Below, piece by piece: positions 3,383 through 47,953 of a stretch of DNA of 52,692 nt. The stretch is from positions 1 to 52,692 of the IMG/VR virus record IMGVR_UViG_3300010885_044795. The stretch is one strand, 5' to 3'. The DNA comes from a virus. Each line of letters begins with the position of its first letter. Position 1 is the first letter of the stretch. Under the pieces are notes generated by a model. That model ran no database searches. It was given only the letters and a program-made list of their open reading frames with translations, and was not told the origin of the DNA. A program made the translations under genes and the position numbers.

Positions 3383-4069
3383 TTATACCTGCGAACTTAA
3401 GTTAGTTAGAGTTTGAACACGAATCGTGTAGTCAATTTGTATAAGACGATTTAAACTTTTCTGAATAGGGTGAAAGATAACATGAGTTAATAGATTACCT
3501 TTATCAACTGTGCTACCATTCCAACTCTTAATACCAAGTTCGTCAAATACAAATGTATCATTAAAGTTTGTAGTATTATCAAATGCTTGTTGACCATTTG
3601 GCTCACCATAATCAAGGGTGCAGGTAATAAAGATATCACTATATACTGTGCCAGCAGTGTGACGAATTTCAATCTTATTACGTGTTGGATCATTATTATA
3701 AATGCTATAATTGTCTACAACTTTATAATATGTTTGATTGTAAAGTGCGCTATTGCTACCAGTTGTATTCGTTGGAAGATATGTAATAACACCAGTTGGG
3801 TCTACAGAGGTTCCACCATTACCAAATGCCATTTCATGAATCCAACCTTGCTGTGCATTGCTCACGCTTTGAGCAAGCGCATAGCTGAAGTTTTCATAAT
3901 GTATAGCATTGCGCTTGTTTACAAATATTTCACCACTTTGAGGGTCAAATATCTTTATATGTCCACTTACTGCAATGCCACCACGTTCATTAGGTTGATT
4001 CATTTTTTGTTTTCCGCTATCTATACCAGTAGATGTATTTATTGGTTTAATTTGCTCTGGTTTTTTCAT
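3383..4069 (-). CDS. Conserved virion structural protein, role unknown
   Basis: A 228-residue protein. Residues ~33-75 read GHIKIFDPQSGEIFVNKRNA then IHYENFSYALAQS, followed by IHEMAFGNGGT. I recall this combination from structural proteins of marine T4-like phages, but I cannot give it a T4 gene name. The N-terminal ~30 residues are charged and probably flexible. The remainder is strand-rich with many Asn and Thr, ending in a short YTIRVQTLTNL strand. The ATG shares one base with the stop of the giant gene (TAATG), suggesting coupled translation and a role in the same assembly, probably linking baseplate to fibres. Confidence 0.6.
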   Translation of the reverse strand: MKKPEQIKPINTSTGIDSGKQKMNQPNERGGIAVSGHIKIFDPQSGEIFVNKRNAIHYENFSYALAQSVSNAQQGWIHEMAFGNGGTSVDPTGVITYLPTNTTGSNSALYNQTYYKVVDNYSIYNNDPTRNKIEIRHTAGTVYSDIFITCTLDYGEPNGQQAFDNTTNFNDTFVFDELGIKSWNGSTVDKGNLLTHVIFHPIQKSLNRLIQIDYTIRVQTLTNLSSQV

Positions 4070-10000: not shown

Positions 10001-13000
10001 CTACCAACAACATTACCATACATTTTTGGAATATTAATTAAACGGAACACAGCACCGTTTTGTGTGCTGCTTGTAGCATAACCAGGCGCACCACTGAATA
10101 CAACTGATCCATTTCGATCCATCTTTACAGCAGAACCATAATTACTGTTTTCTTGTCCTACATCAGTATAAGAAATTACAGTATTAACAAACTGATTTGT
10201 TTCTACTCTTACAATGCTACCATTTGTAGGAGGTGATGCAAAGGTAACTTGATTAGTGTTTACATTAAACACAGCAAGTGTTTCTACAGCATCTACAGTT
10301 ACACTTGGATGTGTAATAAGATTTGGGGTTGTGATTGTAGTAAGACTACTTAATGCATTGCTTAATTGGAATGTTTGAACACTACCATTTGCAACAAAAA
10401 TTTCAGCAGTGCGGTCATAGATATAAGTTTTACCGCTGTTAGCCAGTGTTGTTACACTATTAACACTGCTGTTAGCAGCACCAATTACAACAGTGCTACC
10501 ATCATAGTTTGTGCTTACGCTTGTGCCAAATCCACTTGCATCTGGATCATCAGTAACAATGCGATTAACTTCTGCATAGTGATCTTCATATACAAGATTA
10601 ATAATATCGCTTGCACTTGGTGCTACATCAAATGTAATAATATCTTGACCAGGTGTTTTGATATAATCAAAATTTGGAATTTTAAGAATGCCGTTTACAT
10701 ATACTTTAATATCAAGTGCACTGCCAGTTGATCCAGAAGGATAACTGAAACTGGTTTGTGAACCATCGCCTTGACGCAAACTGCTATTTGCATTAACATA
10801 GGTATATTTGTAAACATAAACACTGTTTGTTGTTGGCTCACCAACATACAACCATTTACCATCACCACTTGTGCTTATACTATAACCAAAGTTACTGTTA
10901 GGCTGCACATTTGGATAGATGCCAATTTTTGTAGATGCGCCAATGTTAACATTACTGCTTACGCCAAGAACATTATAAGCAGGTCCGATGAACAAATTAC
11001 TTATAACAGTGCCATTTGCAAGACTTGAACTTATAACAGGTTGACCGTTAGCAACACCATATAGACTAGTAGCACCACTTACAATAAAATGGTTATTAGA
11101 ACTTGTTGCTACACTTGTTACACCGCTTTGAACAACGCCAGCATTTGTGCTTACAAATGTAAGTAAACTTCCACTTGGAACTGTTACGTTGGTGCTTAAA
11201 GTTAAAACCTTATAGCCAGTGATGTTGCTTATATTAGCAATATAAGTTCCGTTTGGAATACCGCTGCCAATAACAGGCATAGTGTTTGCCATTATACCTG
11301 CAATGCTTTGTCCTGTATTGCCAATATAGACATTTGCATTTGCACTCGTAACGTTTGCATAAAGTGTAGTATAGATACTGCTATTAGCTTGTAGAATTGT
11401 AGCACTTGTGCCATTTGTAATACTATAAATGCTTGAATTGCCATTTGATGCAGAAAGAACAATATCATTGGTCGCAGCTTTAGTAGTAACACTTGTAATA
11501 ACTGTACCAGCATTTACACCTAAACCACCAACACCCATACCAACTTTGAAGTTAGCTACACTATAACTTGCTTGAGCAGCAATATTTGCAGTGCTATCAA
11601 AACTATAAACAGTTGTAAGCAAGATGCTATTATTAGTTTGGCTGAAGCCAGCACTTATAGCATAAAGGTTATCATAGTGAATTGCTTGAGTTAACTTCAC
11701 TTGTTGGCTGTTCACGTTAGCCGCATAAACAATACCTTTAAATGCACTCGGAGCACTTACGATTGCAAAATTACTGTCATTTATATCAACATTTGCGCCA
11801 AAGGTTGTGACACGACTGTCTGGTGCTAGAATACCAATTTCTTGGAATGAATTATCTTCACGCTTGCCATACACAAAAGCACTGCCAGTGCCATTTTTAT
11901 TGCTACTACCAACTACAGTAAAACCTTGTGTTGAATTAATTCTTACGCTGCTACCAAAATTATCGGTTGGTCCAGTAAATACTGGACTCTTGGTTTGTGT
12001 GTAAATCCAGCTATTGCTGTTTTGAAGTACATTATAACCATTAGGACCGTTATCAATATAAACAATTTCATTGGTATTCCAACCACGAACAGGCACAAAG
12101 TTACTAAAATCATTTGCTGTTGTATAACGTACATCTACTAGTTTGTAAAGTATTGCGTTAAGTGCACCAGTGCCTATAGTTGTGTTATCAGCAATCTTTA
12201 CATTAAATGTTGTATTCGTAACACTTCGCACACGATAAAAACCGCTCATATCAGTAACACTGCCACCAGTTGTTGGCGCAGAAATACGACCATTTTTAAG
12301 CATAATATAATCATATGCAACCAAATTATGTGGCAGATTTGTAGTAAACTGCAGTTCAGTTGGACTTAATTGATTAATATAAGTTACAAATACTTGGCCA
12401 GGTTGACTTAAACGATATACTCCCCATTGGTTAGCACTATCTGCTGCAACCCATACTTTACTGCCTTCACTTAATATTGTGTTAAGTGCGCTTATATTAT
12501 AAATCTTATTGATATCATAAACAGTTGCATCAACATCATTTGGACTTACTGGACCAGCAGTTGGTATAACTTCTTTATTGTTTTGTGTCTTTGCAAAGAT
12601 ATCTGGTGTATATGTGCGTGGCTTATACAGCAAATCGCTTGGTTTAATTGTGTTGGTGTGTGCAATACGTTGATCAGTTTGATTAATAAGTTCAAACAAA
12701 TATTGGTTATTGATTGTGATAGCATTACCAATATTAAATTCTAGTTTGTCGTTCTTATTAGTACCACCGTAACTATCAAGTTTAATTGCCCACTGTTCAA
12801 CTAACTTAATATCACTGTCAATACGTTTTTGTTTGTTGCGAAGATAAGCATTAAGAACAGCTTGTGTTCCTTTTTGACTTACCATACCAAGATAGAACTT
12901 ATATTGACTAGTGTTATCTAAACCTAAATCAGTGAAGTACTGTCGTGGACTAAATCCTGTTTCACTCTTACTCAACAAATCAGCAGCACTGTTAAGATCA

Positions 13001-16000
13001 GTAGTATCAGGATCATGGAAATTAATAAATTGTGCGGCACCACTTGCCATATTTGGAATAAGATTTTTACTTAATAAATCACCGTTAATAAGATACCAGT
13101 TACTGCTTTTAAATTGTGCAGTACCTGGTATAAAATTTTGTGCAGCATAATACTGATTCTTGAATAGAATAATATCGCCTTTATAATAATCAGTATAAGC
13201 AACCCACTGTGGAATTTCACTTACGTTTACAAAGAAACCAGGCGCATAAAGACTGCCATTCCAATCATTTGTTTTTGCGCCATCAAGACGTAATCGGAAT
13301 TGACGACTGCCAACTTGCTCATCATAAAGAATATCATTGAACACAGTATTGTTATCAAGTATAAGTGTATGTTCATACTGAATGATTGCAAGGTCTATAA
13401 GATGCACACCTTTTTGTGCGTTCTTGAGTTCAAGTTGGAACAAATTATCTCTGCGATATACACGATAATCGCTGCCAGTAAGTGTAACATTATCACTGTT
13501 AATAACTTTAGTATAATTGTTTGTGTTTGATAGAGTATCAACAACACCAAAGGTGCTTTCAAATCTGATATTTGTGCCAGCAGGTGTAAGAGAGATAATA
13601 GTATCATCGCCCCATTGCTGTTGATTCCAGAATAAAAATTCTTTAGCTGCTAGAACCCAGTCGCTTTTAGTAGTCTTATCGCCTAAAAATTCTTCAAATA
13701 CAAAACCCTGTGATTGTAGATAACGACCATAACTTACAAGAAAATCTACTACTTGTTGCTTTGTATTAAAAATACTGCCATAAGGATAGCTATAAATGTT
13801 ATCGCTGCTATCTGTATAAATGATAGCACGTTCATTGCCCACACTTATAGTATAATTGTTATTGCTCACACGACTTGGAATAGTCAAGAAGTAAGGGCGT
13901 TCACGATCAAATCCACGAACTTGATAACCATTTACAACTTTCTGCACAATTACTGCGCTATAAACAGCACGAGCAACAGGCGCACTCTTGGTTACTTTAA
14001 CAGTGTAGTTTTCTTGTGGAATAATAACACTGCTGTTAGTGCTTTGTGGACTTACTTGGTCAGCAACAATAGTAAGATAACTCTTGTCAGTAAAAGAACC
14101 CATCTTATAAACAAGATTGAATGTGCTGTTTTCTGCTACATTGATCCAGTTCTCTATAATATCAAGATTGTTATTTGTAAGATAATCACGTAACCATACA
14201 TTGTAACCAGGTATAAAGTCACTATCACCAGTTGCACTGAAATCAAACTGACGATTATTATGCTTTTTATTAATGAACTGATTTAATAATGTATTATAAG
14301 TTAGGTCACGAGTGTTATACTTAAGCGCAGTCCACTCTGCTGGTTTTGCAAGACACCATGCCATCATAACAGCAAAAGGATAATCTACACTTCGACGCCA
14401 TGCAGTTTCAGCAGGACTTTGGTCACCTACTACCCAGTTTTGTGCAGCATAGTTTGCATCATAGTTACGCAATACCGAAAAGTTTGGATTCAATAAATTA
14501 CCATGTTCATCAACAGGAATAATGCTTGTAAGACCTGGTCTTGCATAACGACTATTATAGTAAGCATCATTTGGATTACCATTATAAACATAACCTGCTT
14601 CAAGATCGCTCCACAGAACGCCGTTTTCACTTGTATAAGGTGCTGGTCCATAGCGATTTGTCCACCATGTTGGACGTAAGGTAAAACCTAACATTTCCCA
14701 TGGTTTTGTGTGAGGATGATCGGTATCATAAAAATACTTGTAGATACCACGCCAGTAACCAGGTACTGGCTTACCAAATAATTTGTCTATGCCTGTTGCA
14801 TAGTTAAAAGTAAATGGATCACCTGTAACAGTTGAATTTGTAAAGATATCAACATTATTGGTATGTGCCCAACGTAAGTATGATGGTGCAAGTAATTGTG
14901 TCCACTCATCAATTGTATAGTTAGTAACACGAAAAGCACCTGGCACAACGCTACTTAAATCAACATCGCTGTTTTCACTATATGTTGTAGTGATATTATT
15001 ATAAACACGTTTTTCAAACTCAAGTAGAATATTATCACGATAATCATTAAAACCTTTTGTAAAGCTGCCATCATGACCAATTATGCCAAGCGTTGGCGTA
15101 ACATAGGTATTGTCTGTAAGTATTTCAGGTTTAAACTTCGGATACATACCAAGTTTAGTTGGGGTTGACGGAATGTTACAACCACGAGTGCTGTTATACT
15201 CATATACTTCAATCTTGTCGTTACGAGCAATTGTAACACTATCACTTATAGTAATTGTGCGATTACCAATGGTATAATCAATATTCTTTAAAAGTAGCAC
15301 ACTGTTAAGATAAACTAGCAGTGAACGATAGCCTTTTGTATCATCTGCAAAATCTTGAGTAAGATTATAACGACGATATGTTGTATTTGCAACTGTATAG
15401 CTATTTTTTATATAATTGGTTCCAAAACCAATCATATCAGTATAATAGAATGGCTGGCCAATATTTGCTACTTTACTGAACTCTTGTAGAACCAAATCTA
15501 AACTTTCACGATAGTTTGTTGGATTTGGAAATTCGGTGCTACTTATATAATTAAGCAATTGATTTTTGAAGATGTTATAGCTATCACTAGCATAACGAAT
15601 AAACTGCAGTGGGTCTACATCATGGTCAGCAAATAGCAGTGAAGCTGGTCGCATACTTGCACTATGTTGTAGAAGTTTACCACCAACATAGTTATAGTTC
15701 AAATCTCGGAAGTTATTTGCGCCAGCAGGTTCACCAACAAGGTCTAATAAATTATTTCCAATTTCAATAAGGTGATTACGAACTTGCCCAAGCGTAATAG
15801 TTGTAAATTCTGTATTCTCACTATTGTTAGTAAGATTACGTGGCATAGTATATGTTTCTTTATATGCAGCACTTGTGCCATAAATTTTTATAAAGACACG
15901 ATCATCTACATTCAAATCTTGGTTAAAAACAACCACACTCGTAATACTGCTTGTTTTGAGTGTATAAGTTGTATTTGATTGCAGCTTACCATTAACATAA

Positions 16001-18762
16001 ACAAATATGTTGTTTTCATAATAGCTGTTATTGTAAACAATTTTAAGATCAAAATTATTAAGTTGTACCGCACTTGCAGTATAAACTTTTGTAATATATT
16101 GCTTGCTCTTGTCACTTACACGTGACCAGCCATTAGCAAGAGTATAATTGTTCCAGCCAATAATAAGTGCAGCAAATCCCTGATTGATACTTTCTTTTTG
16201 GTCAACTTGATTTAAACTATACTGAAATGTATCGGTTTGATAATAGTTTTTGAAAACAATATCACCAAGATTGCCAATGCTCTTGTAAACAAGTGGAAAA
16301 CCTAGTTCACTATCACGTTTACCAGTTCCAACAGCATAACCAAAAAGTTCACTACCACTAAAATCACTACTTGCATAAACTGTTTGATCGCTTAAACTAT
16401 AGCCATTTTTATCAATAATATCAAACAGCGGAAATTGTGGGCGACTATTACGTATTTGGGCAATCTTCCATACACCATCTACAAAGTAAAACATGTTACC
16501 TTGGTTAGTAACACCTTCCATTGCAACTACACTATCACCATTCGTAAATGTTTTGATAGGAACAAGATGTATTTGATCATAGCTGTTATCAAATGTAATT
16601 GTAGTGCCTGCAGGAACATCTTGTGTTAATTTATTGCTTAAGTAAACACGATCAAGTGTTGCATCAATGCTTATGATTGTAGTATAGTTTGGAATACCTA
16701 GTCCAGTAACATGCTGACCTACTGCTAAATTTGCAATATCATTAATGTTAAGAATGTTTGAATTATTATTGCTGAAAGCATATGTGGTTTTATTATATGT
16801 TGCGCTTACACGAGTTTTATTATTTTGCACACGGTATAGCGTAGCACGCTTTACGGGATCGCTTTCTTTTGTAAAAATTACAGTCAAACCATTTAATAGC
16901 TGTATACCATCACTGTTATATACACCATTGGTTTTAACCGCATAACTATTAAATCCTTCTACTTGAGAAAAAGCACTTGTAGTGATACTATCAATACAAG
17001 TTACATTATCAACATAATTTGTTCCATAATTGTATAGTTTTAAGTTTGGTAAGAACTCAACAATAGGACGTTTTGCTTGTTGATTACTATCAAAACTATA
17101 ACTTACATTATTATAATTTGCTGCTGCTTGTAATACATCACGGTGGAACCAACGGTTATTGCGACTCCAACTATTGCCATCTATGCTTGCACGATTAATT
17201 GTAATATAATCTTTTTGCTCTGGACTATTTGTGGTGCCATCAAATCCTGTGCCATCAGCATCATAACCACGACTATTACCAAATGAACTACCAAGGTTAG
17301 TATTGATAGTTTCTGGCGTAACAAGGTCACTATACTTGATAAGTTTAATACTGTTACCAACACCCTCAACAATATATTCGTTACCCTGATATTCTTGTGG
17401 AACAACAACACCAGTAAACTTTACTTTAAGACCGCTTGTAAATTGCACACCATTAGGACTTGTATAATTTTTACGACCAAGAATATCATTTACATTTAAT
17501 AAACTATTTGGTTGTGGATCAACAAGCTGAATAGTTCCATAAACAAGTGGATTTGTAGCATCAACATAGTAAAGCACGTTTTGAGCAGCACTTAATGTTG
17601 GAAATTTTTGAACTATATTAAAGATATCTTTATAAGCATATACGTGACCATAAAAATCACCTTGAGTAACAAATACTTTGTTTAACACTGGCCAATCAGC
17701 AACATAAGTTAGACTCATAAGGCGATAATCAGGCTTTGTTGCATCATTGCCAACATTTATACGCCATACGCCACCCCATTGAGTAGAATCAACATCACTC
17801 CAACCAGTAGTGCTTGTAAGCACAATATATTTGCCATCAAATGCACGAACGCCATCTAAACTATGAGACAAAATAAATGAATCATAATTTTGTCCCTGTA
17901 ATTGTTCATATGTAATATAATCAACAACCAAATCAACAGTTTGATTAAGCGTTGTATAGTTAATAAGATAATCCTGTGCAGTGCTTAATGGAACTGTAAA
18001 AGTAATTTTTCCACTCTTTGCACCATTATCGCTTACACCCAATACATCACGTGTGCTTATATTATTTTGAACAGAACTTTCACCACTGGTTCCAATTTCA
18101 GTTTGAATCCAAAAATCAGTATCTTGATTAACATAAAAATTATAACTGCCACCACGAACAAGTGTAAGCGTAGGATTGATAACATTGGTATAACCGTCTA
18201 CGCTATAACCTGTTGCACCTAATGCAGCACTTTGTAGTTCAGTTTCATTGTTAGCAACATAACTGTTACGATGAATATAAAAATCTTTTTGTGTAGGCGT
18301 ATTCTCTGCAGTAACATCAACTGTGAGTGGACCACCTGGCACCCAATAATATTGACGATAGTTCGTTAGTTTATCAAGGTCAATAAAACCATTATAACTG
18401 TAATAACGGTTTGAAAACAATCTATCATGATTATTGTTAAGACCACCATCAGCACTTATTTGATTAAGCAAATCAACATAGTTATAAACATTATTAACTT
18501 TGTAGGTGTTAGTGCCATACTGACGTTTTTTAATTACAACGCCTGGTTCAAGTTGATAGAACTGACTGTAACTATCATTTTCATTTATATAGTAATCACC
18601 TTTTTCAAACACAGGACTTTGATCCTGTTGTCCAATGTAACCATACATCTTTTTAAGACTTGGTTCTTGAATAAGAGGGTCTATAGTGGCATTTAAGAAT
18701 CTGCGATTGCTTAAAGTTCTAAAAGTTTGTGGTAAAAAGTTTTCACTTTTACGTTTTGCCAT
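4069..18762 (-). CDS. Giant 4,897-residue baseplate/fibre virion protein
   Basis: A single uninterrupted frame of 14.7 kb (about 540 kDa), directly after gp6 where T4 has gp7/gp8; I recognise no T4 homologue. Visible modules: an N-terminal ~250-residue region (LPQTFRTLSNRRFLNATIDP); several fibre-type beta domains with a (V/I)YVNG..L.....Y motif near residues 950, 1160, 2680 and 4390; seven FG-GAP-like units (FGSSVRI, FGANVDI, FGYSIST, FGTSVST, YGSAVKM, FGEILAL, YASGVDI) between about 2265 and 3125, suggesting an integrin-like propeller with insertions; at least five copies of a VGM.V.G.GIP.GT..I domain near 680, 2405, 2495, 2570 and 4805; and three W...Y..(G/N)D(I/V)V carbohydrate-binding-like motifs near 1855, 3920 and 3970. 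No signal peptide or enzymatic motif is visible. The composition suggests a host-contacting peripheral baseplate protein (inference). Confidence 0.8.
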   Translation of the reverse strand: MAKRKSENFLPQTFRTLSNRRFLNATIDPLIQEPSLKKMYGYIGQQDQSPVFEKGDYYINENDSYSQFYQLEPGVVIKKRQYGTNTYKVNNVYNYVDLLNQISADGGLNNNHDRLFSNRYYSYNGFIDLDKLTNYRQYYWVPGGPLTVDVTAENTPTQKDFYIHRNSYVANNETELQSAALGATGYSVDGYTNVINPTLTLVRGGSYNFYVNQDTDFWIQTEIGTSGESSVQNNISTRDVLGVSDNGAKSGKITFTVPLSTAQDYLINYTTLNQTVDLVVDYITYEQLQGQNYDSFILSHSLDGVRAFDGKYIVLTSTTGWSDVDSTQWGGVWRINVGNDATKPDYRLMSLTYVADWPVLNKVFVTQGDFYGHVYAYKDIFNIVQKFPTLSAAQNVLYYVDATNPLVYGTIQLVDPQPNSLLNVNDILGRKNYTSPNGVQFTSGLKVKFTGVVVPQEYQGNEYIVEGVGNSIKLIKYSDLVTPETINTNLGSSFGNSRGYDADGTGFDGTTNSPEQKDYITINRASIDGNSWSRNNRWFHRDVLQAAANYNNVSYSFDSNQQAKRPIVEFLPNLKLYNYGTNYVDNVTCIDSITTSAFSQVEGFNSYAVKTNGVYNSDGIQLLNGLTVIFTKESDPVKRATLYRVQNNKTRVSATYNKTTYAFSNNNSNILNINDIANLAVGQHVTGLGIPNYTTIISIDATLDRVYLSNKLTQDVPAGTTITFDNSYDQIHLVPIKTFTNGDSVVAMEGVTNQGNMFYFVDGVWKIAQIRNSRPQFPLFDIIDKNGYSLSDQTVYASSDFSGSELFGYAVGTGKRDSELGFPLVYKSIGNLGDIVFKNYYQTDTFQYSLNQVDQKESINQGFAALIIGWNNYTLANGWSRVSDKSKQYITKVYTASAVQLNNFDLKIVYNNSYYENNIFVYVNGKLQSNTTYTLKTSSITSVVVFNQDLNVDDRVFIKIYGTSAAYKETYTMPRNLTNNSENTEFTTITLGQVRNHLIEIGNNLLDLVGEPAGANNFRDLNYNYVGGKLLQHSASMRPASLLFADHDVDPLQFIRYASDSYNIFKNQLLNYISSTEFPNPTNYRESLDLVLQEFSKVANIGQPFYYTDMIGFGTNYIKNSYTVANTTYRRYNLTQDFADDTKGYRSLLVYLNSVLLLKNIDYTIGNRTITISDSVTIARNDKIEVYEYNSTRGCNIPSTPTKLGMYPKFKPEILTDNTYVTPTLGIIGHDGSFTKGFNDYRDNILLEFEKRVYNNITTTYSENSDVDLSSVVPGAFRVTNYTIDEWTQLLAPSYLRWAHTNNVDIFTNSTVTGDPFTFNYATGIDKLFGKPVPGYWRGIYKYFYDTDHPHTKPWEMLGFTLRPTWWTNRYGPAPYTSENGVLWSDLEAGYVYNGNPNDAYYNSRYARPGLTSIIPVDEHGNLLNPNFSVLRNYDANYAAQNWVVGDQSPAETAWRRSVDYPFAVMMAWCLAKPAEWTALKYNTRDLTYNTLLNQFINKKHNNRQFDFSATGDSDFIPGYNVWLRDYLTNNNLDIIENWINVAENSTFNLVYKMGSFTDKSYLTIVADQVSPQSTNSSVIIPQENYTVKVTKSAPVARAVYSAVIVQKVVNGYQVRGFDRERPYFLTIPSRVSNNNYTISVGNERAIIYTDSSDNIYSYPYGSIFNTKQQVVDFLVSYGRYLQSQGFVFEEFLGDKTTKSDWVLAAKEFLFWNQQQWGDDTIISLTPAGTNIRFESTFGVVDTLSNTNNYTKVINSDNVTLTGSDYRVYRRDNLFQLELKNAQKGVHLIDLAIIQYEHTLILDNNTVFNDILYDEQVGSRQFRLRLDGAKTNDWNGSLYAPGFFVNVSEIPQWVAYTDYYKGDIILFKNQYYAAQNFIPGTAQFKSSNWYLINGDLLSKNLIPNMASGAAQFINFHDPDTTDLNSAADLLSKSETGFSPRQYFTDLGLDNTSQYKFYLGMVSQKGTQAVLNAYLRNKQKRIDSDIKLVEQWAIKLDSYGGTNKNDKLEFNIGNAITINNQYLFELINQTDQRIAHTNTIKPSDLLYKPRTYTPDIFAKTQNNKEVIPTAGPVSPNDVDATVYDINKIYNISALNTILSEGSKVWVAADSANQWGVYRLSQPGQVFVTYINQLSPTELQFTTNLPHNLVAYDYIMLKNGRISAPTTGGSVTDMSGFYRVRSVTNTTFNVKIADNTTIGTGALNAILYKLVDVRYTTANDFSNFVPVRGWNTNEIVYIDNGPNGYNVLQNSNSWIYTQTKSPVFTGPTDNFGSSVRINSTQGFTVVGSSNKNGTGSAFVYGKREDNSFQEIGILAPDSRVTTFGANVDINDSNFAIVSAPSAFKGIVYAANVNSQQVKLTQAIHYDNLYAISAGFSQTNNSILLTTVYSFDSTANIAAQASYSVANFKVGMGVGGLGVNAGTVITSVTTKAATNDIVLSASNGNSSIYSITNGTSATILQANSSIYTTLYANVTSANANVYIGNTGQSIAGIMANTMPVIGSGIPNGTYIANISNITGYKVLTLSTNVTVPSGSLLTFVSTNAGVVQSGVTSVATSSNNHFIVSGATSLYGVANGQPVISSSLANGTVISNLFIGPAYNVLGVSSNVNIGASTKIGIYPNVQPNSNFGYSISTSGDGKWLYVGEPTTNSVYVYKYTYVNANSSLRQGDGSQTSFSYPSGSTGSALDIKVYVNGILKIPNFDYIKTPGQDIITFDVAPSASDIINLVYEDHYAEVNRIVTDDPDASGFGTSVSTNYDGSTVVIGAANSSVNSVTTLANSGKTYIYDRTAEIFVANGSVQTFQLSNALSSLTTITTPNLITHPSVTVDAVETLAVFNVNTNQVTFASPPTNGSIVRVETNQFVNTVISYTDVGQENSNYGSAVKMDRNGSVVFSGAPGYATSSTQNGAVFRLINIPKMYGNVVGSKTGWTVAANSTIRINDYLVTFGQTFRPPYAPIYYRSNVDQVITTINNAKIPYVTAGKTPNGAIYISSSDTTAMPMLKLRNEGSDILGTFGITQWQLVQKLTNPIAQDTARFGEILALSPDANSMVVGSTLSNTKTTVTFDSKTTTFDRYGTRFRDTVYRSGAAHLYEYQTLANENYNNYGSFAYASLVQDQFANSYDRYASGVDISDNFLMVGAPHAHLLGNPVGAMYIYYNHNAAPVWQTIRSGGVDYDSRNIDRVYLYNSTTARLITELPVLDLPYGYLPNSSESYIDYTVNYDPAVYNQVPTTISFSFDRKNAWGSEQVGKLWWDINSIKYYDNTQGNNVNRFNYWGLAFPSSTINIYEWIESDVQPKNYVGSSPSNTPLYTINDVYSSQITIDEKTGQAVTKYYFWVKNSILANANRPSAREIQAALISPRNNNEPFAAVINKNAIGIFNAQNLVSVDTNLAIEYKNTLEPQLIHSEWTMFDDGSDLGVAVEFLNKLNDSLTGQDVSGRIVPDFNLPIGQKYGMSVDLRQSLFKDNYYARMLYIEKINQICIKYPMVLTRSDAINQLNNIDPIPNSTEYTLTVNNLTELGYINTAAYPIGTQVLVLQDSNSYNNGWSLFKLVFNTVSYVRRWEYVRVQTYNVNDYWTYADWYSTKYNSQAPVNHTVTTENDIANLTLNVNDLIYVTNSNSGGWKLVLVNTNDLELVAQQNATIQFTSNLYNLAAASQGFQTSSYQSVGFDTDSSLEFSAIFAVIRDYLLINEYRSEYKEAIALLIDIVASQHQQTDWQMKTSLVDLYHRVRGLDQLPVYLPQPENTVTDFFNEAKPYHTKLKQYVAIYDNGNNIDTAYASITDFDLQPYKNSLTGQYRSPQLGNSLDTDALTYTAVYQPWVNNHKYSIDLVTMVNGGAGYDGSTTAVVTGDGSGAVVKPYILNGSVYTIEVIKPGQNYTYANIEIYGIGVGAKAEAVIGTSLSRNMNAIIKFDRNQYFNNVKDWSANTNYSVNDVVVHQELPYRCIIAHTSGATFDATKFLVLIVKVWYPKTTYNLNDIVVYNNSSYVVTTAFTSGLTFTTTNLSVYSGLWLDNACDRVWAYYSPLSGMAGRDLAQVMTGIYYPGNQVIGPGFNQVPGYDVNYYDYIPYDYSTKDIENVYDIYGVQSEDTIIRSLFTDTGLGLRPQDIDIVGGGFIDTYSSHAPEELVPGQLVDTLDIKVNTLPDRNGGPDIMIFTSNYVGSNTFSYDPAITGVPLPQGGIEKFYVIDRNLGPIAETYHYTVNYQAKTITTLYTPATGTFFYVIMFGSNGVTPVDDLDYYADGVQTDFDIPDFVTTPIQQAYVKINGQLVTNWSLVNKLENGRTLLAVRFNTAPSANDYVQIHLYNVALGTTAYSEWYEQTFIIPSATYPVNYNFTLNRAEFYVEPVSSFPIVRLNGSDLLPPQQSYYFGDGVTTNFSMTNSWVETIANIVDPEIIVVVDNVTQVNGQDYTVYHDPSNTATPVIQFTVAPSSGARIVISDSSQCDFKIYGNQLWISPQVTITNNSKLTVLTQGNHDPNEQYTKLFSGSTTNTSVIDNGLDTTGFDSVGFDNELSSYIGAVYYTLPRAVTNINQIYITHKAPFTTGGFPLLPYRDFKLVTPTTIVLDTALNISATSVIAVRIFGDPVRQSTLEYRIFKDMRENTRLYAVKSKKPILTQNLNANASYIYVDNVNYLQSPGNTANDAGIVIINGERISYGILDRVNNRLGNLRRGTAGTGTPNVIVKGTTVYDSSSTLEIPNSRETYVQTPIATYISSGLFTTYANSYTSNNIVNRTLPLVPIMNNSANAVVQVSVVKNSTTLAANSDYVISENSVIINSNVNLGTFALANITSSNGNIYISNTYTTVSNAMIGQAIIGGNLYPSTTITNVSNSAPYIVIAISSNQTVNANANLQILDKITINQGISNKMLVSANSYIRQGTLIQNFGTSLQDSTNPYAEFIRSQ

Positions 18763-38381: not shown

Positions 38382-39503
38382 ATGTTAGATCCTGCAACAA
38401 TACCACACTTTGCACAGAATTTTGGTTTCTGGTTAGTTGATAACGAAATAGTTTTTAGTAAAGTTAAAAGCATATTACGTGCGCAAGAACGCAAAACACG
38501 TGACGTTCGTTATTATTTCTATGATCATATATTTGCAAGCTATGATTGGGCTATAGAACCACAGCAATCATTACAAGAACTTTATATTGCTCGTGCGAAA
38601 CAGTTACGTGAGAAATATGATTATCTTATATTGCTGTATAGTGGTGGCAGTGATAGCAGCAATGCGCTTAAAACATTCGTTAATCATGGCATTAAATTAG
38701 ATGAAGTTGCATATTGGTATACAAGTTACAACGAAGATACTAACATAACAAATCTTGAATTGCTATATGCTGCTAGTGGTATGTTAGAAAAAGTGCGTGA
38801 TGTTCATGGTATACCAGTACGCAAAATTGATGAACGACAATTTATAACTCGTTCTAATCTTAACAATGCTGATTGGGTGTTAGGCGCAGAACCGCTATTA
38901 GTTGCTGCTCAAATAAGCAAAGAACCTATGATATATGAAACAGTAGACTGGCGAAATATAGCAGAAAGCGGTAAACGTATTGGTATTATTCTTGGATTAG
39001 AAAAACCACGTATATTTTATGATAACGGTTGGCATGCGGCTTTTCTAGATGTTGCACATACATGGAATACAGAAAATCAACATATTTCACCTAAACATAT
39101 TACTCTCGAAAGTTTTTATACAAGTGGTGATGCTCCACTTATTACTATTAAACAAAGTCATGTGTTAAAAAATCATATCAGTAAAATGTATGATTTGGAT
39201 TATATAAAAACTCGGTTTGATTATACAAAGAACTTTAAACAAGATGAGTATATGAAACTTTGCAGAGACACTCTTTATCCTTACTGGGATGATAACACAT
39301 ATAGTTTAGGCAAAAGCATAAACAAACCGCCACTTACGCAAAAATATGAATGGTTGTGGAACAGCAACACAGATATAAGCAACAATTATTTGGATGGGTT
39401 GCGTTGGCTTAATAATATTGTTGATCCATATTGGTGCAATAGCGGTGATTTTTATAAAGGATTTGTGGGCGCATGGAGTCGAAGGTATAGTTTAGATGGT
39501 TGA
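38382..39503 (+). CDS. PP-loop ATP pyrophosphatase (asparagine-synthase-like)
   Basis: 373 residues. The adenylation motif YLILLYSGGSDSS (SGGSDSS at 87-93) is the PP-loop signature of N-type ATP pyrophosphatases (asparagine synthase C-domain, QueC, TilS, NAD synthase and relatives). These activate a substrate by adenylation for amidation, thiolation or ligation. The N-terminal ~80 residues precede the loop, and no glutaminase domain (Cys at position 2) is present, so it is not a complete asparagine synthetase. The C-terminal half is Tyr/Trp-rich and unassigned. It starts a four-gene operon with the Tct genes and a 2OG oxygenase and overlaps tctA by eight bases. The substrate is unknown. Confidence 0.7.
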   Translation: MLDPATIPHFAQNFGFWLVDNEIVFSKVKSILRAQERKTRDVRYYFYDHIFASYDWAIEPQQSLQELYIARAKQLREKYDYLILLYSGGSDSSNALKTFVNHGIKLDEVAYWYTSYNEDTNITNLELLYAASGMLEKVRDVHGIPVRKIDERQFITRSNLNNADWVLGAEPLLVAAQISKEPMIYETVDWRNIAESGKRIGIILGLEKPRIFYDNGWHAAFLDVAHTWNTENQHISPKHITLESFYTSGDAPLITIKQSHVLKNHISKMYDLDYIKTRFDYTKNFKQDEYMKLCRDTLYPYWDDNTYSLGKSINKPPLTQKYEWLWNSNTDISNNYLDGLRWLNNIVDPYWCNSGDFYKGFVGAWSRRYSLDG

Positions 39504-40803
39504 ACTGCTTGTGTTTTGTTTAGTTGGATGCGCATATGGGTTAGTAATTGGGTTACTACCAGGTGCTAGTATGAGTGTAGGTATGGTATTGGCTTATCCA
39601 TTGCTTATGAAATGTGCGCCGCATGATGTAATTGCTTTTTATATAAGCATGGCAACAAGTGTTCAATACTTTGGTGGTGCAAGTGCTACGCTACTTGGCA
39701 TACCAACAGAACTTACTTGTTTGCCAAGTGTCAAAGAAGGTTACGGATTAGTCAACCGTGGTAAAGTAAGCGAGGCATTAAGCAGCGGTGTTTTAAGTAG
39801 TTTTATAGGCAGTATGATTGCAATTGTGCTTACTCTTGCAATATTTTGGATAGGTAACAATTATAGTTTACTATTCAATTTTAAATTTCAACTTGCATTA
39901 TTGTTATTAACTTGTGCAATTACTGTTGCAAGTCATCGTAATATTATTACTGGAATAGCATTACTGGGTTCTGGTTACTTTCTTGGTATGGTTGGTGTGA
40001 ATCAAATAACAAGAAAACCATTTATGACCTTTGATATTCCTCAACTTGTAGGCGGCATACCACTTATTGTTGTTTTAGTATTCTTATATGGTTTACCATT
40101 GCTATTATCAATAAACTATACTAAAACAACAATTAATATAAGGGAAAAACTTAAACTTCAAGTTGTTGTGCCACTGGTTACTATAATTCGAAGCAGTATA
40201 ATTGGTTTTGTCTGTGGTTTTATTCCTATGCTTGGTATTATATTGAGCAGTAATTTAAGTTATAGTTTAACCAAATTTTTGCATCGTAGCGATTATGATC
40301 ATGGTGGCGATGTGCGTGGACTAGCAAGTAGTGATGCTGGTCATAACGCTGGATTGGTTGCTAGTTTAGTTCCACTATTTTGTTTTGGTGTGCCTATCCT
40401 AACAAGTGAGTATATTCTTTATGATATTACTACTAATCGTGGGTTAACTTATAATTTAGAATGGTTACTGCACAATTACTGGTGGATATTTGGTATTTTT
40501 GCAGTAGCAAATATATTTGGGTTTATTACAAGTTGGCCACTTGCCATACATTTAGTAAAATTTATTATAAATTACATGAAACTTTTCAAAGTTTTTGGAA
40601 TATCACTTATGTTAATATCAGTGTTATTAATAGCAACAAATTTGAATCAGTTAGGTTTTTATGTTATATTAAGTTTAATATTCTTGCCTATTGGTTATGC
40701 ACTTCGGCGGATTGATATGCTGCCATTTATTCTTGGATTTCTTATATCACAACAGTTTGATTCAACTTTAAGAATCGTTTACAATTTACATTTTGGAGGA
40801 TAA
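39496..40803 (+). CDS. tctA: TctA-like membrane permease (tripartite tricarboxylate transporter large subunit)
   Basis: 435 residues, slightly short for TctA (about 500), with roughly ten or more hydrophobic segments. Both family signatures are present: the first-half LVIGLLPGASMSVGMVLAYP, then FGGASATLLGIPTEL and EGYGLVNRGKVSEAL; the second-half CGFIPMLGIILSSNLSYSL, then ASSDAGHNAGLVASLVPLF and CFGVPILTSEY. TctA forms the inner-membrane channel that imports tricarboxylates or other carboxylates with sodium or protons, using TctC capture. It starts eight bases inside the PP-loop gene and ends two bases before the TctC-like gene. No TctB small subunit is seen. It is a strong candidate for a host-derived auxiliary metabolic gene. 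Confidence 0.85.
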   Translation: MVELLVFCLVGCAYGLVIGLLPGASMSVGMVLAYPLLMKCAPHDVIAFYISMATSVQYFGGASATLLGIPTELTCLPSVKEGYGLVNRGKVSEALSSGVLSSFIGSMIAIVLTLAIFWIGNNYSLLFNFKFQLALLLLTCAITVASHRNIITGIALLGSGYFLGMVGVNQITRKPFMTFDIPQLVGGIPLIVVLVFLYGLPLLLSINYTKTTINIREKLKLQVVVPLVTIIRSSIIGFVCGFIPMLGIILSSNLSYSLTKFLHRSDYDHGGDVRGLASSDAGHNAGLVASLVPLFCFGVPILTSEYILYDITTNRGLTYNLEWLLHNYWWIFGIFAVANIFGFITSWPLAIHLVKFIINYMKLFKVFGISLMLISVLLIATNLNQLGFYVILSLIFLPIGYALRRIDMLPFILGFLISQQFDSTLRIVYNLHFGG

Positions 40804-41670: not shown

Positions 41671-42204
41671 ATGTATTATCAAATTTTAGATCATTTACCA
41701 CAAGTTCCACAGCACTTTATTGATAAGATTATGAATAATATTGATAATCTTAACTTTGATGAATATATGAAAGGCAGACGAACACCTGTTGCTGGCAACA
41801 AAATGTTTCCACGCTCACCCGTGGAAGATGATCTTAAAGATTGGATAATCACCCATATTACGGATCGTGGGCACCTTATTGATGTGGCTGTAACAGACTA
41901 TGATAACAATAAGGTTGCCCTTCGACCACATACAGACAGAACTCGTGAGTATACACTTATGTATTTGTTAAAAACTGGCGGTGATGATCATAGAACTGTA
42001 TTTTATAAACCTAAAGATACTACAATTAATGTTGTAAGAAACATGGATTTTGATTACAATGAATTAAATGAAATTGACAGTATACATGTTCCACTGTATA
42101 CTTGGACTTTATTACATGCAGTAACAGTTCACAGCGTAGAAAACATACCTGGTATGCGTGTAGCGATACAAATTGGACTAGAAGAAAACTTTGTTGGCTT
42201 GTAA
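41671..42204 (+). CDS. Small 2OG-Fe(II) oxygenase-like protein
   Basis: 177 residues. Triad candidates are LRPHTDRTREYTLMYLL (H87-x-D89) and VHSVENIPGMRVAIQIGL (H154, with R163 placed for 2-oxoglutarate). The length and the HTDxxRxYTLMYLL pattern match short oxygenases common in marine T4-like phages. It is the last gene of the PP-loop/Tct operon, with AAGGA before the ATG. The substrate is unknown; it could modify the product of the PP-loop enzyme or a host envelope component (speculative). Confidence 0.7.
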   Translation: MYYQILDHLPQVPQHFIDKIMNNIDNLNFDEYMKGRRTPVAGNKMFPRSPVEDDLKDWIITHITDRGHLIDVAVTDYDNNKVALRPHTDRTREYTLMYLLKTGGDDHRTVFYKPKDTTINVVRNMDFDYNELNEIDSIHVPLYTWTLLHAVTVHSVENIPGMRVAIQIGLEENFVGL

Positions 42205-42219
42205 AAATTAATATATACT
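42191..42219 (+). promoter_or_regulatory. Promoter candidate for the structured RNA
   Basis: TTGTTG (42191-42196), 17-base spacer, TATACT (42214-42219) straddling the end of the oxygenase gene. The predicted start is near G42226. The spacer length equals that of the other sigma70-type promoters in the window; the -35 is weak. Confidence 0.45.
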
Positions 42220-42225
42220 ATAACT

Positions 42226-42649
42226 GGCTCATTCGGCATATAGGCTCATTGGCACCATAATCCCAAATAAGAAATATATTGAAGGTTGTCAGCACCCCGA
42301 CATTGCTGTATGGATAACGTTTGGCTGACGATAGGCTAAACGATGAGGCTCTGGGAAAAAGCAACCTCAACTACTATAAGTTCGTTAGCAAGGGTTTATA
42401 GTGGGTCCGTTGGTAAAAATCTACAGGAAGTGATGGGGTACAGGCTAACCGCCCCACTTGGTTTCAAGTTCCGTTTGCTAATGTCCTTATGATAGCTCAA
42501 ATGAAGCTGTTTGGATATGGATTTCCTGCTTAAGGAAATCTATGTCCAAAATCCAGTCTAAATGAAACTATTATTAATTCTCCTAGAGAAATGAAAGAAG
42601 AAAAGAAAGTGAAGGGACGACAGTCCCTGAACAGATGCCTACGGCATCT
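42226..42649 (+). ncRNA. Large structured noncoding RNA candidate, class unknown
   Basis: A gene-free stretch of about 440 bases with much more G+C than its surroundings (45 % and 52 % in two 60-base lines counted) and dense complementarity. Stems on the plus strand: 42286-42293/42324-42331 (8 bp), 42345-42348/42365-42368, 42373-42379/42396-42402 (7 bp), 42428-42431 plus 42435-42438 with 42452-42459, and a 16-bp hairpin 42511-42526/42534-42549 with a 7-base loop and two G-U pairs. TTAGCAA in the loop of the third stem (42385-42391) is perfectly complementary to TTGCTAA at 42475-42481, predicting a pseudoknot. GGCTCATT is repeated at the 5' end (42226, 42243). It is not tmRNA (no tRNA-like ends or tag), not RNase P, and I see no group I or II core. 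The 3' end is uncertain. Confidence 0.6.
42613..42649 (-). terminator. Tandem hairpins after the gp26-like operon
   Basis: Two perfect hairpins lie just beyond the minus-strand stop: 42633-42639/42643-42649 (7 bp, loop of 3) and 42613-42618/42623-42628 (6 bp, loop of 4). The second is followed on the minus strand by a pyrimidine-rich tract (TCACTTTCTTTTC). They sit between convergent genes and may also form the 3' end of the plus-strand RNA. Confidence 0.45.
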
Positions 42650-42879
42650 TAAAAGAAAGGCAAACCTGACTTCTTGGTAGTTTCTAAATTATCCTCAACG
42701 ATCTTGTTGATAAGATTTCTCTCATTAAGACTTAACTCATGTGCTTCGCTATAAGTTAATCCACCACGCATATACCAACAAAGTTTAAGTAAATTAGATT
42801 TTATAGCATTTACATCTTTTTCATATTTTGCCACTAACTCAAGAATTTCTTCGTGTTTAAGACTTAAGATAGTGGCTCG
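42649..42879 (-). CDS. -1 frame extension: tail-assembly chaperone T-like domain
   Basis: A 76-codon open frame overlapping the end of the gp26-like gene in its -1 frame. The sequence reads SLKHEEILELVAKYEKDV, then LLKLCWYMRGGLTYSEAHEL and ends TTKKSGLPFF. A GTG at 42834 could start a 61-residue version, but it has no ribosome site, and the conserved-looking helix extends upstream of it to the slippery site. Expression by -1 frameshifting would give a fusion of about 352 residues. The LSxxER pattern and position resemble the T domains of lambda gpGT-type chaperones. T4 gp51 lies next to gp26 and could be the counterpart (inference). Confidence 0.6.
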   Translation of the reverse strand, partial: RATILSLKHEEILELVAKYEKDVNAIKSNLLKLCWYMRGGLTYSEAHELSLNERNLINKIVEDNLETTKKSGLPFF

Positions 42880-43706
42880 AAAAAATTTGCATAATCAAAA
42901 GTAATGCTTACACTATATTCTGTATTACATTCTTCACATGATATTTTTGGTTTAGGTAGTGCAACCATATCTGCATATTGTTGAAGTTTTTCTTTAACTG
43001 CACGTATTACAGAATTGTTAGCATTCTCATAAAACTCCATAATATGTTGTGGATCAACTACTACTATGCCATCTTCTGTTGTAATGCTTACTGTGCTTAA
43101 AGCAATAATATTGTTATTGGCTTCAATAATTTTTTGTAAATGCACTTCAAATTGTGCTTTGCGTGTTTCACTATCAATATTTTCATCATTGATCACCTGT
43201 AGTAATCTTTGTTCTTCAAACTGCATGATATTATTTTTAGTGCTTTGCATATAATTCAATGGTTTAAATCTTATAGTCAATCCTTCTATGGCGAGAGTAT
43301 CATCATAGTTAGGACTGCGTAATGAAGTTAATAGCCCACTTATATTATATTGATTGCGGTTTTCTGCTTTACAATGTGGACATTCACTATCAATATCCAT
43401 ATTTTCGCCGTAAGTTGCAATACGAATAGCAATAAGAATAGCATCAACATCAATAGTTGGTGTAGCCCATGCATTTAAGATTTGTGGTATGCAGCTTTGC
43501 ATTACGCTTACTACACCTTGACCATTCATAAGTGCATCAGGGGTGCGAAGCAATATTTCATCTTTGGCTGTCATTGGCATTACGCCTAATTCATTGTTTG
43601 CTGGCATTTCAATAGTATTGGGTAACCAATATTTGCCATTGCTTGGTAGTTTTAAAAATACTGCTGGTTGGCGAAAATGCTTTGTTAATGGGTTGCTTGA
43701 CATCAT
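42864..43706 (-). CDS. gp26: gp26-like baseplate hub/tail-assembly protein
   Basis: 280 residues from the ATG at 43706; a TTG ten codons upstream has no ribosome site, and a second ATG follows at 43703. Family features: AVFLKLPSNGKYWLPNTIEM, then ELGVMPMTAKDEILLRTPDA, VMQSCIPQIL, IRIATYGENMDIDSECPHC. Two CxxC pairs (C109/C112 and C257/C260) suggest a zinc-binding unit. T4 gp26 is a baseplate hub assembly protein. Here the gene is divergent from the tape-measure gene and ends with a tandem slippery site, arguing for a chaperone role in tail-tube/tape-measure assembly. Confidence 0.78.
   Translation of the reverse strand: MMSSNPLTKHFRQPAVFLKLPSNGKYWLPNTIEMPANNELGVMPMTAKDEILLRTPDALMNGQGVVSVMQSCIPQILNAWATPTIDVDAILIAIRIATYGENMDIDSECPHCKAENRNQYNISGLLTSLRSPNYDDTLAIEGLTIRFKPLNYMQSTKNNIMQFEEQRLLQVINDENIDSETRKAQFEVHLQKIIEANNNIIALSTVSITTEDGIVVVDPQHIMEFYENANNSVIRAVKEKLQQYADMVALPKPKISCEECNTEYSVSITFDYANFFEPLS
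42879..42888 (-). promoter_or_regulatory. Tandem -1 frameshift slippery site
   Basis: The minus strand reads AAATTTTTTC in phase GC-A AAT TTT TTC. It contains two canonical X XXY YYZ heptamers, A AAT TTT and T TTT TTC. Slipping -1 on either leads into the same open frame of 76 codons. The zero-frame stop follows four codons later. Confidence 0.65.
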
Positions 43707-43717
43707 AATTTTGGTTC

Positions 43718-43725
43718 CATAAATA
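43718..43725 (+). promoter_or_regulatory. T4-type late promoter candidate for the tape-measure gene
   Basis: CATAAATA, one mismatch from TATAAATA, 45 bases before the ATG at 43771, in the gap between the divergent gp26-like and tape-measure genes. Confidence 0.4.
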
Positions 43726-43770
43726 ATATTTGACAAGTTATTTACAGTTTAGAATTTTTAGGTAAAATTA

Positions 43771-46165: not shown

Positions 46166-47953
46166 ATGGGTTGGAAAAAGCATTGGCGTATCGTAAGTGA
46201 TGGTGCATATAGCCCTGTAAACGGTAGCGTAACAGACTATAGCAGCTATAACTATCTTGGTTCTCAAGCAAACGCAGCATATCGTAACTATCAAAGCATG
46301 TTACCAGATGTGTATAGTGGTCACCCTAATCGTATTGACCGTTATACTCAATATGAGAACATGGATTTAGATAGTGAAGCTAACAGTGCAATGGATATTC
46401 TAGCAGAGTTTTGCACTCAAATGAGTGAAGAAACTAAAACTCCTTTTAATATTCAGTTTAATGAAGAAGCAACTGAAAATGAAATCATGATTCTTAAAGA
46501 ACAACTTAAGTCTTGGTGCAAACTACAAGATTTTGAACAACGTATCTTTAAGATGTTCCGTAATACACTAAAATATGGCGATCAAGTATTCGTGCGTGAT
46601 CCAGAAACCTACAAGTGGTTCTGGACTGAAATGAATCGTGTAAGCAAGGTTATTGTTAACGAAAGTAAGGGCAAAGAACCTGAAATTTATTATATTCGTG
46701 ACCTAAATCCTAACTTACAAAACTCTACAATTACACGTCCACCAGGTCCAAATGACAGTTATGCCTTTGCTCCTTATATGGGTGGTAGTCGTTCTTATAC
46801 AGCAGGTGGTGAAGTATTTTCACCGAATACACGTTTTGGTGCTGGTAATAATGAGTTCCCTGTCGGTGCAGAACATATTGTTCACTTAAGTTTAACAGAA
46901 GGTTTGGATGTTTGCTGGCCGTTTGGCGTTAGTATTCTTGAAAGTATCTTTAAAGTATTCAAGCAAAAAGAATTGTTAGAAGATGCAATTCTAATCTATC
47001 GCATTAGTCGTGCACCAGAGCGCCGTATCTTTAAGATTGACGTTGGTAATATGCCAGCACACCTTGCTATGCAATTTGTTGAACGTGTTAAGAACGAAAT
47101 CAATCAACGTCGTATTCCTACACAAAGTGGTGGTGGTAGTAATCTAATGGACGCCAGTTATAATCCAATGAGCATGAACGAAGATTTCTTCTTTCCTGTA
47201 ACTGCCGAAGGTCGTGGCAGCGATGTTACTACACTAGCTGCAGGTCAAAATCTTGGTGAAATTGATGATTTGCGTTATTTCCAAAACAAGATGTATCGTT
47301 CACTTCGTATTCCAAGTAGCTATCTTCCAACTGGTCCAGAAGACAGTGACCGTGCATTTACTGATGGTAAAGTAACTACTGCTCTTATTCAAGAGCATCG
47401 TTTTAACGAATACTGCAAGAGATTACAAAAGTATATAAGTCCAAAATTTGATCTTGAGTTTAAGATGTATCTTAAGCATAAAGGTTTTAACCTTGATAAC
47501 AGTCTATTTGAATTGCGTTTCACTGAACCACAGAACTTCGCTGCTTACCGTGAAACTGAATTAAATTCAACTCGTATTACTGCATTTACACAAATAAATC
47601 AAACAGATTACCTTTCAAAACGTTTCATGTTAAAGAAATATCTTGGATTAAGTGATATGGAATTAGCTGAAAATGATAGAATGTGGCACGAAGAACGTGG
47701 CACAGATCAGCCAAAAACTGATATCCAAGGTTCTGATCTACGTAGTGTTGGAGTTACGCCTGGTGCTATAAGCACTGACCTTGAAACTGTAAGCGATATA
47801 CAAGCAGCAGAACAAGGTGGTGGATTTGGCGGACCAGGCACACCGCCTATTGGTGGTGAAGTTGGTGCTGCTGGTGTTCCAAGCCCAACAGGTGGTGCTG
47901 GTGGCGGTGCGGCAGGTGGTGCAACTGCTGGTGCTGCTCTTGGTGGTGCATAA
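46166..47953 (+). CDS. gp20: Portal vertex protein gp20
   Basis: 595 residues (T4: 524). Family sequence is clear: YRNYQSMLPDVYSGHPNRID, YENMDLDSEANSAMDILAEF, FRNTLKYGDQVFVRDPET, DVCWPFGVSILESIFKVFKQ, DAILIYRISRAPERRIFKID then VGNMPA, and YFQNKMYRSLRIPSSYLP. Twelve copies form the DNA gateway at the capsid vertex and nucleate prohead assembly. The C-terminal ~70 residues are an Ala/Gly/Pro-rich tail (GGAGGGAAGGATAGAALGGA) not found in T4. It has AAGGA upstream and a TATAAATA late promoter. Confidence 0.97.
   Translation: MGWKKHWRIVSDGAYSPVNGSVTDYSSYNYLGSQANAAYRNYQSMLPDVYSGHPNRIDRYTQYENMDLDSEANSAMDILAEFCTQMSEETKTPFNIQFNEEATENEIMILKEQLKSWCKLQDFEQRIFKMFRNTLKYGDQVFVRDPETYKWFWTEMNRVSKVIVNESKGKEPEIYYIRDLNPNLQNSTITRPPGPNDSYAFAPYMGGSRSYTAGGEVFSPNTRFGAGNNEFPVGAEHIVHLSLTEGLDVCWPFGVSILESIFKVFKQKELLEDAILIYRISRAPERRIFKIDVGNMPAHLAMQFVERVKNEINQRRIPTQSGGGSNLMDASYNPMSMNEDFFFPVTAEGRGSDVTTLAAGQNLGEIDDLRYFQNKMYRSLRIPSSYLPTGPEDSDRAFTDGKVTTALIQEHRFNEYCKRLQKYISPKFDLEFKMYLKHKGFNLDNSLFELRFTEPQNFAAYRETELNSTRITAFTQINQTDYLSKRFMLKKYLGLSDMELAENDRMWHEERGTDQPKTDIQGSDLRSVGVTPGAISTDLETVSDIQAAEQGGGFGGPGTPPIGGEVGAAGVPSPTGGAGGGAAGGATAGAALGGA

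Follow-up and report, generated by a model that had tools for sequence, protein, structure and literature searches.

The window analyzed here, the whole 52,692-nucleotide stretch of the viral record IMGVR_UViG_3300010885_044795 (positions 1 to 52,692), carries at positions 42205 to 42649 an intergenic gap that appears to encode a structured RNA located 3' of a gp26 baseplate-hub gene. The preceding gene ends at 42204 and the next open reading frame of at least 60 amino acids, on the minus strand, ends at 42649. Inside the gap there are only small overlapping reading frames of at most 52 amino acids, and no coding signal was seen in it. A preliminary description, made from the letters alone, had noted a gene-free stretch with locally high G+C content, and both observations held: the gap from 42205 to 42649 is free of open reading frames of at least 60 amino acids, and G+C is elevated relative to the surroundings, reaching 0.445 across 42300 to 42499. 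The plus strand of 42205 to 42649 folds at -131 kcal/mol (z of -4.27; 0 of 100 shuffles as good), and the minus strand gives a z of -2.88. The stretch is a highly structured, gene-free plus-strand RNA. Judged from its sequence, the encoded product is apparently a dedicated, noncoding phage RNA of roughly 350 to 430 nucleotides (nt). Convergent orientation of the next gene, seen in the window as well as at the hub locus of phage 121Q and in locus L003, means that the window copy cannot serve as its leader. The features of the locus are as follows.

42191 to 42219, plus strand: putative promoter TTGTTG-17-TATACT, proposed in the preliminary description; the hexamers exist, but the match is weak and falls below the consensus-scan cutoff
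42226 to 42259, plus strand: poorly conserved 5' leader with GGC(U/A) repeats, from the alignment
42283 to 42288, plus strand: closing long-range helix (helix 1), 5' strand AGGUUG, partner 42554 to 42559; 94% of cells paired, no double change
42290 to 42308, plus strand: hairpin CAGCA/UGCUG (helix 2), with compensatory C-G to U-A changes
42345 to 42368, plus strand: stem GAGG/CCUC (helix 4) enclosing the conserved loop CUCUGRGAAAAAGCAA, conserved into clade B
42371 to 42404, plus strand: long hairpin (helix 6) presenting the pseudoknot loop 42384 to 42391; double compensatory changes in 11 of 13 pairs
42385 to 42391, plus strand: pseudoknot 5' strand UUAGCAA (helix 7), covarying with 42475 to 42481
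42407 to 42412, plus strand: conserved CCGUUG motif, common to cultured jumbo-phage copies, from the alignment
42435 to 42455, plus strand: hairpin GGGGUACAGGCUAACCGCCCC, the most conserved of the hairpins
42456 to 42469, plus strand: hairpin ACUUG/CAAGU (helix 11), with double changes
42475 to 42481, plus strand: pseudoknot 3' strand UUGCUAA (helix 7)
42499 to 42505, plus strand: twin segment X1, AAAUGAA, in a loop closed by a small hairpin, AUAGC-UCAAAUGAA-GCUGU
42510 to 42550, plus strand: long hairpin separating the twin segments (helix 14); double changes in 7 of 10 counted pairs
42554 to 42559, plus strand: closing-helix 3' strand (C..AGUCU), ending in UCU before X2
42560 to 42566, plus strand: twin segment X2, AAAUGAA, the same as X1
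42613 to 42649: two hairpins (42613 to 42628 and 42633 to 42649) at the convergent intergenic end, their position conserved in the alignment

The hairpin at 42613 to 42628 resembles a terminator of the minus-strand genes and may also mark a boundary of the RNA.

The structure was evaluated in homologues collected through a gp26 protein scan, from which 80 loci were fetched. For the clade of the window, the drawn structure of 72 pairs, pseudoknot included, was tested on 14 homologues against 500 shuffles and controls with slid partners. In this structure 96.8% of the cells were paired, and double compensatory changes were found in 32 of the 72 pairs, compared with 15.5 in shuffles (0 of 500 as high). 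The covariation score was 0.361, versus 0.169 after shuffling and 0.04 to 0.08 (four- to ninefold lower) for slid partners, controls over which the drawn structure is favored because it was partly derived from the same alignment. The pseudoknot pairing 42385 to 42391 with 42475 to 42481 is exactly as first described, with four of its seven pairs doubly changed, and the predicted long hairpin is present at 42510 to 42550. Marine clade B, folded separately, had double changes in 31 of 55 pairs. The fold, including the 7-bp pseudoknot, is under strong covariation in the two clades examined separately, in support of the initial proposal of a large, structured, pseudoknotted noncoding RNA. The closing helix (42283 to 42288 with 42554 to 42559) is kept, yet it is less certain because it contains no double change.

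A feature that the preliminary description had missed is a pair of hypervariable segments. In nearly every member, a hairpin downstream of the pseudoknot is flanked by two copies of one short sequence, X1 and X2 (together, X), which are alike within an RNA and hypervariable between RNAs, with 29 versions in 96 nonredundant RNAs. The pattern is (C)UC/UCU-N5-A-N, with CUC before the first copy and UCU before the second. Across N1 to N5 the identity within an RNA was 1.0 versus 0.29 to 0.41 across RNAs, the former value being partly by construction, since a repeat of 6 nt or more was in most cases the criterion for choosing the twins. The invariant A at position 6 and the fixed, differing flanks are not products of repeat picking; position 7 agrees between copies in 79%. 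In an alignment of clade B that was blind to the repeat, 6 of 10 distinct pairs were identical and the remainder were mostly shifted by one column (permutation P below 5e-5), and in a repeat-blind alignment of the window clade both copies changed in step (AAAUG, AUAUG, and AGAUG). A small hairpin carries X1 in its loop, as in GAUAC-UCACAUGAU-GUAUC of locus L098. About 10 loci had no clear twin. Gene conversion does not explain the identity of the twins because the CUC and UCU flanks differ consistently between the copies.

The virus can be placed by its structural genes. The gp26 baseplate gene (42864 to 43736, minus strand) and a gp20 portal gene (46166 to 47950) are T4-like myovirus markers, and their nearest cultured relatives are jumbo phages, namely Phosso, Atu_ph07, PA5oct, the Erwinia/Serratia BF group, and RaK2. 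Because of these relatives, and because one window-clade record is 338 kb long, the window is probably a 53-kb fragment of a jumbo myovirus like RaK2, PA5oct, or Atu_ph07. The window also contains a single open reading frame of 4,897 amino acids (4069 to 18762, minus strand) and a gene for a TctA tripartite tricarboxylate transporter protein (39496 to 40803), possibly a host-metabolism gene.

The position of the RNA is conserved. Most loci whose gp26 is 57 to 66% identical have the RNA adjoining gp26, and in remoter gp26 loci a diverged copy lies about 2 kb away. Long folded phage RNAs of this kind had initially been described as rare, which proved wrong for this one: a 19-nt core pattern, GGGTACMGSNNAACCGCCC, matches at least 120 viral contigs, and the RNA is widespread in jumbo phages. 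A covariance model, R1, built from environmental sequences alone, found one copy each in 15 of 17 long viral records, and the 338-kb record likewise has one detectable copy. A scan of a prokaryotic genome collection gave 84 pattern matches, only 2 of which passed a test for the neighboring RNA motif; both lie on contigs of metagenome-assembled genomes, one from Betaproteobacteria and one from "Candidatus Pelagibacter", and are probably phage contamination. A host origin of the RNA was rejected on these grounds. The "Candidatus Pelagibacter" contig with the RNA, L293 (CAJQJC010000044.1), is binned with SAR11, which gives a hint of the host of the marine clade.

Two neighboring genes recur near the RNA. 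A gene for a 63-amino-acid Hc1-like (histone H1-like) protein lies 0.7 to 2.5 kb upstream in 17 marine-clade loci, for example L066. A single-domain SegE-like GIY-YIG nuclease (PF19835, phrog_447) is encoded near the RNA on either strand in 32 of 53 representative loci, mostly 250 to 400 nt upstream of the core hairpin. With adjacency limited to those 32 loci and not seen in the window clade, the nuclease was rejected as an obligatory partner.

Counterparts were located in cultured jumbo phages. Model R1 gave E values of 3.1e-4 in Atu_ph07 and 4.5e-4 in PA5oct; its hits on BF (0.45) and RaK2 (0.83) were the best places in those genomes but were not significant. The window RNA matched no cultured phage by BLAST, and a marine clade B query hit only tail genes of Enterococcus phages, in three spurious matches about 31 nt long. 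BLAST from the places in cultured phages located by R1 found the element in 31 RaK2-like and 11 PA5oct-like phage records, mostly in unannotated DNA or beneath small hypothetical genes. In Escherichia coli phage 121Q one copy is flanked by endonuclease VII and the gp26 hub gene, a position corresponding to that in the window, and Serratia phage BF has a remote, unannotated counterpart at the same gp26-hub place.

The same architecture was found from the window clade to the cultured phages: a pseudoknotted hairpin, CCGUUG, a hairpin with a conserved loop, the distal pseudoknot strand, and twin X segments around a hairpin. A complementary pair of 6 to 9 nt fitting the pseudoknot, together with twin X, was present in 26 of 27 cultured copies, a count in which the automatic search reported, for a few copies, a complementary word other than the pseudoknot. 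The pseudoknot is kept with different sequences (GUCGAAU/AUUCGAC, AUUGUAU/AUACAAU, and AUCGAAU/AUUCGAU), and X is CGUCAR or, in RaK2, CUUCAAG. A TATAAT box precedes 22 of 24 cultured copies, versus about 8 in shuffles, and a conserved promoter-like element, TGARAC..TGnTATAAT, lies 5' of most of them. The sequence evidence for homology of the window clade with the enterobacterial copies is weak, and the case depends mainly on shared architecture and synteny, because a reverse model, R2, recovered almost nothing in the environmental set. In Atu_ph07, two paralogues lie in unannotated gaps (382155 to 384353, and 489782 across the origin to 244), and, in contrast to the enterobacterial phages, the twin segments of one seem not to match those of the other.

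No Rfam 15 family matched the window or nine relatives at gathering score, in agreement with the initial failure to recognize any RNA class. Covariance models of GOLLD, ROOL, OLE, and HEARO had no matches in the same sequences and, at loose E values, none in the window (E up to 5) or in six cultured-phage loci (E up to 1); the loose Rfam output consisted of microRNA hairpins and other noise. ARAGORN found no tmRNA or tRNA in the window or relatives. A group I or II intron was rejected, the RNA lying between complete open reading frames with no Rfam match in the window or nine relatives, and a riboswitch or mRNA leader was rejected for the window and 121Q hub copies, whose downstream gene is convergent. 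GOLLD, ROOL, and OLE are large ornate RNAs of bacteria and phages (PMC12286853). Like GOLLD and ROOL, which are encoded by phages and prophages and whose function is unknown, the RNA described here is large, heavily structured, and noncoding; it differs from these and OLE in being shorter, in lacking an Rfam sequence or structure match, and in having twin identical hypervariable loops. ROOL and GOLLD often lie near tRNA islands, whereas the window has no tRNA. Similarly, tmRNA, RNase P RNA, 6S RNA, and group I introns are stable structured RNAs of this size range, but the phage RNA has no ARAGORN or Rfam match and does not interrupt a gene.

In the plasmid copy-control antisense RNAs ColE1 RNAI/RNAII and IncFII CopA/CopT, specificity is set by short hypervariable loops on a conserved scaffold. 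The phage RNA shares this layout but has two identical loops rather than a complementary pair, a much larger scaffold, and no antisense partner that was found. The bridge RNA of IS110 elements is a structured RNA with two programmable loops; in contrast, the phage RNA loops carry one sequence, no recombinase gene was recognized adjoining it, and in the window clade it occupies one conserved genomic position. We know of no described RNA family with two identical yet hypervariable loops in a conserved scaffold, and no description of this RNA was found in the searchable literature (open-access papers only). The RNA family is previously uncatalogued.

The best explanation for a conserved scaffold bearing two identical loops that evolve fast is that both loops recognize one partner. 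We tentatively favor, at somewhat less than an even chance, a trans-acting RNA with a pseudoknotted scaffold that displays the twin loops for recognition, most likely through base pairing with one target. As to transcription, mode of pairing, target, and benefit to the phage, we infer the following. Given the sigma-70-like extended -10 box of the cultured copies, the RNA would probably be made early and by the host RNA polymerase. The closing helix, pseudoknotted hairpin, CCGUUG, and the GGGUACAG..AACCGCCC hairpin would form a scaffold that holds out two identical segments, X1 in a hairpin loop and X2 beside the closing helix, each as UC/CU-N5-A-N. Both would recognize the same partner, most likely by base pairing with an RNA (or DNA) strand of the phage or the host, and when the partner sequence changes, both copies of X would change together. 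The free variation at five positions favors base pairing. The broader proposal, that this is a new class of sequence-programmable phage RNA in which a pseudoknotted scaffold carries two identical, freely evolving 5- to 7-nt guides against one target across a jumbo-phage lineage, is possible but is offered with greater reserve.

Several results weigh against guide function. A search for complements of X found none within the RNA or at a fixed aligned position, and no recurrent gene-relative site in the contigs was complementary to X beyond permutations. Neither X nor its complement was clearly enriched in the contigs or upstream of RaK2 and Atu_ph07 genes. In addition to the partial construction of the twin identity by repeat picking, X is nearly constant (CGUCAR) in the enterobacterial phages, which also fits protein binding. 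Among the RaK2 tRNAs, the sole complementarity to X was the common word TTGAA, present in two tRNA-Ser. Competition of X1 and X2 for a single upstream strand (GACGA in BF and CBB), which would make an internal switch, was rejected as a general mechanism because the 93/94-kb paralogues have CCGUCAG in both copies without a matching partner and the marine X1 lies in a loop.

The near-constant X and the invariant A keep protein binding under consideration. The twins might each be a half-site bound by a dimeric or oligomeric RNA-binding protein of the phage (a regulator, antiterminator, or packaging factor) that coevolves with X. The invariant A6 and fixed UC/CU flank resemble a protein recognition frame, and CGUCAR extends to Xanthomonas jumbo phages and is common to the paralogues of one genome. 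However, N1 to N5 vary almost freely among close marine relatives, which is fast for protein specificity, and no single protein gene accompanies every copy. We consider this explanation rather unlikely, but less so than the readings that follow.

It is improbable that the element acts in cis on the genome, as an origin or primer RNA (RNAII-like) or as a packaging or segregation mark. That idea draws on the paralogues of RaK2-like phages: five copies each were detected in Munch, CBB, BF, and XbC2, four in 121Q, and three in RaK2, all on one strand within each genome, and the gaps in the four five-copy genomes are rather even, at about 52 to 84 kb. The chance of so large a minimum gap is about 0.001 to 0.005 per genome, these genomes being related. 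However, the 338-kb window-clade record has its single detectable copy, the strand that holds the copies is the one favored by GC skew and presumably by most genes, the paralogues keep long-range RNA helices, and the twin loops do not require such a role.

A scaffold or cage RNA of the ROOL/GOLLD type, self-assembling into homo-oligomers that the twin loops would hold together or link to cargo, is a poor prospect. The RNA described here is large, ornate, and pseudoknotted, and ROOL and GOLLD form RNA-only cages (PMC12286853), but X1 and X2 are direct repeats with no complementary loop elsewhere in the RNA, which makes a kissing loop between like molecules unlikely, and the lack of an Rfam match to GOLLD, ROOL, or OLE further argues against it. 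A 5' leader or riboswitch of a downstream gene, or an ordinary convergent-terminator region, is very improbable: several paralogues do precede same-strand genes, as in the dam methylase region downstream of a paralogue in RaK2 and Munch, but the next gene is convergent in the three loci noted above, and the fold exceeds a terminator by far in size, with covariation throughout.

Many of the largest bacterial viruses carry an intricately folded RNA with two copies of one short, virus-specific sequence. Because the displayed sequence changes from virus to virus, the RNA is suggested to recognize a specific partner during infection. This conserved structured RNA was passed over by annotation in laboratory jumbo phages that infect E. 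coli, Klebsiella, Salmonella, and Pseudomonas, and the recorded hosts of related phages include E. coli K-12 MG1655 (for Sharanji) and P. aeruginosa PAO1 (for Paride). If the twin segments are guides, jumbo phages would possess a programmable RNA regulator or recognizer of their own.
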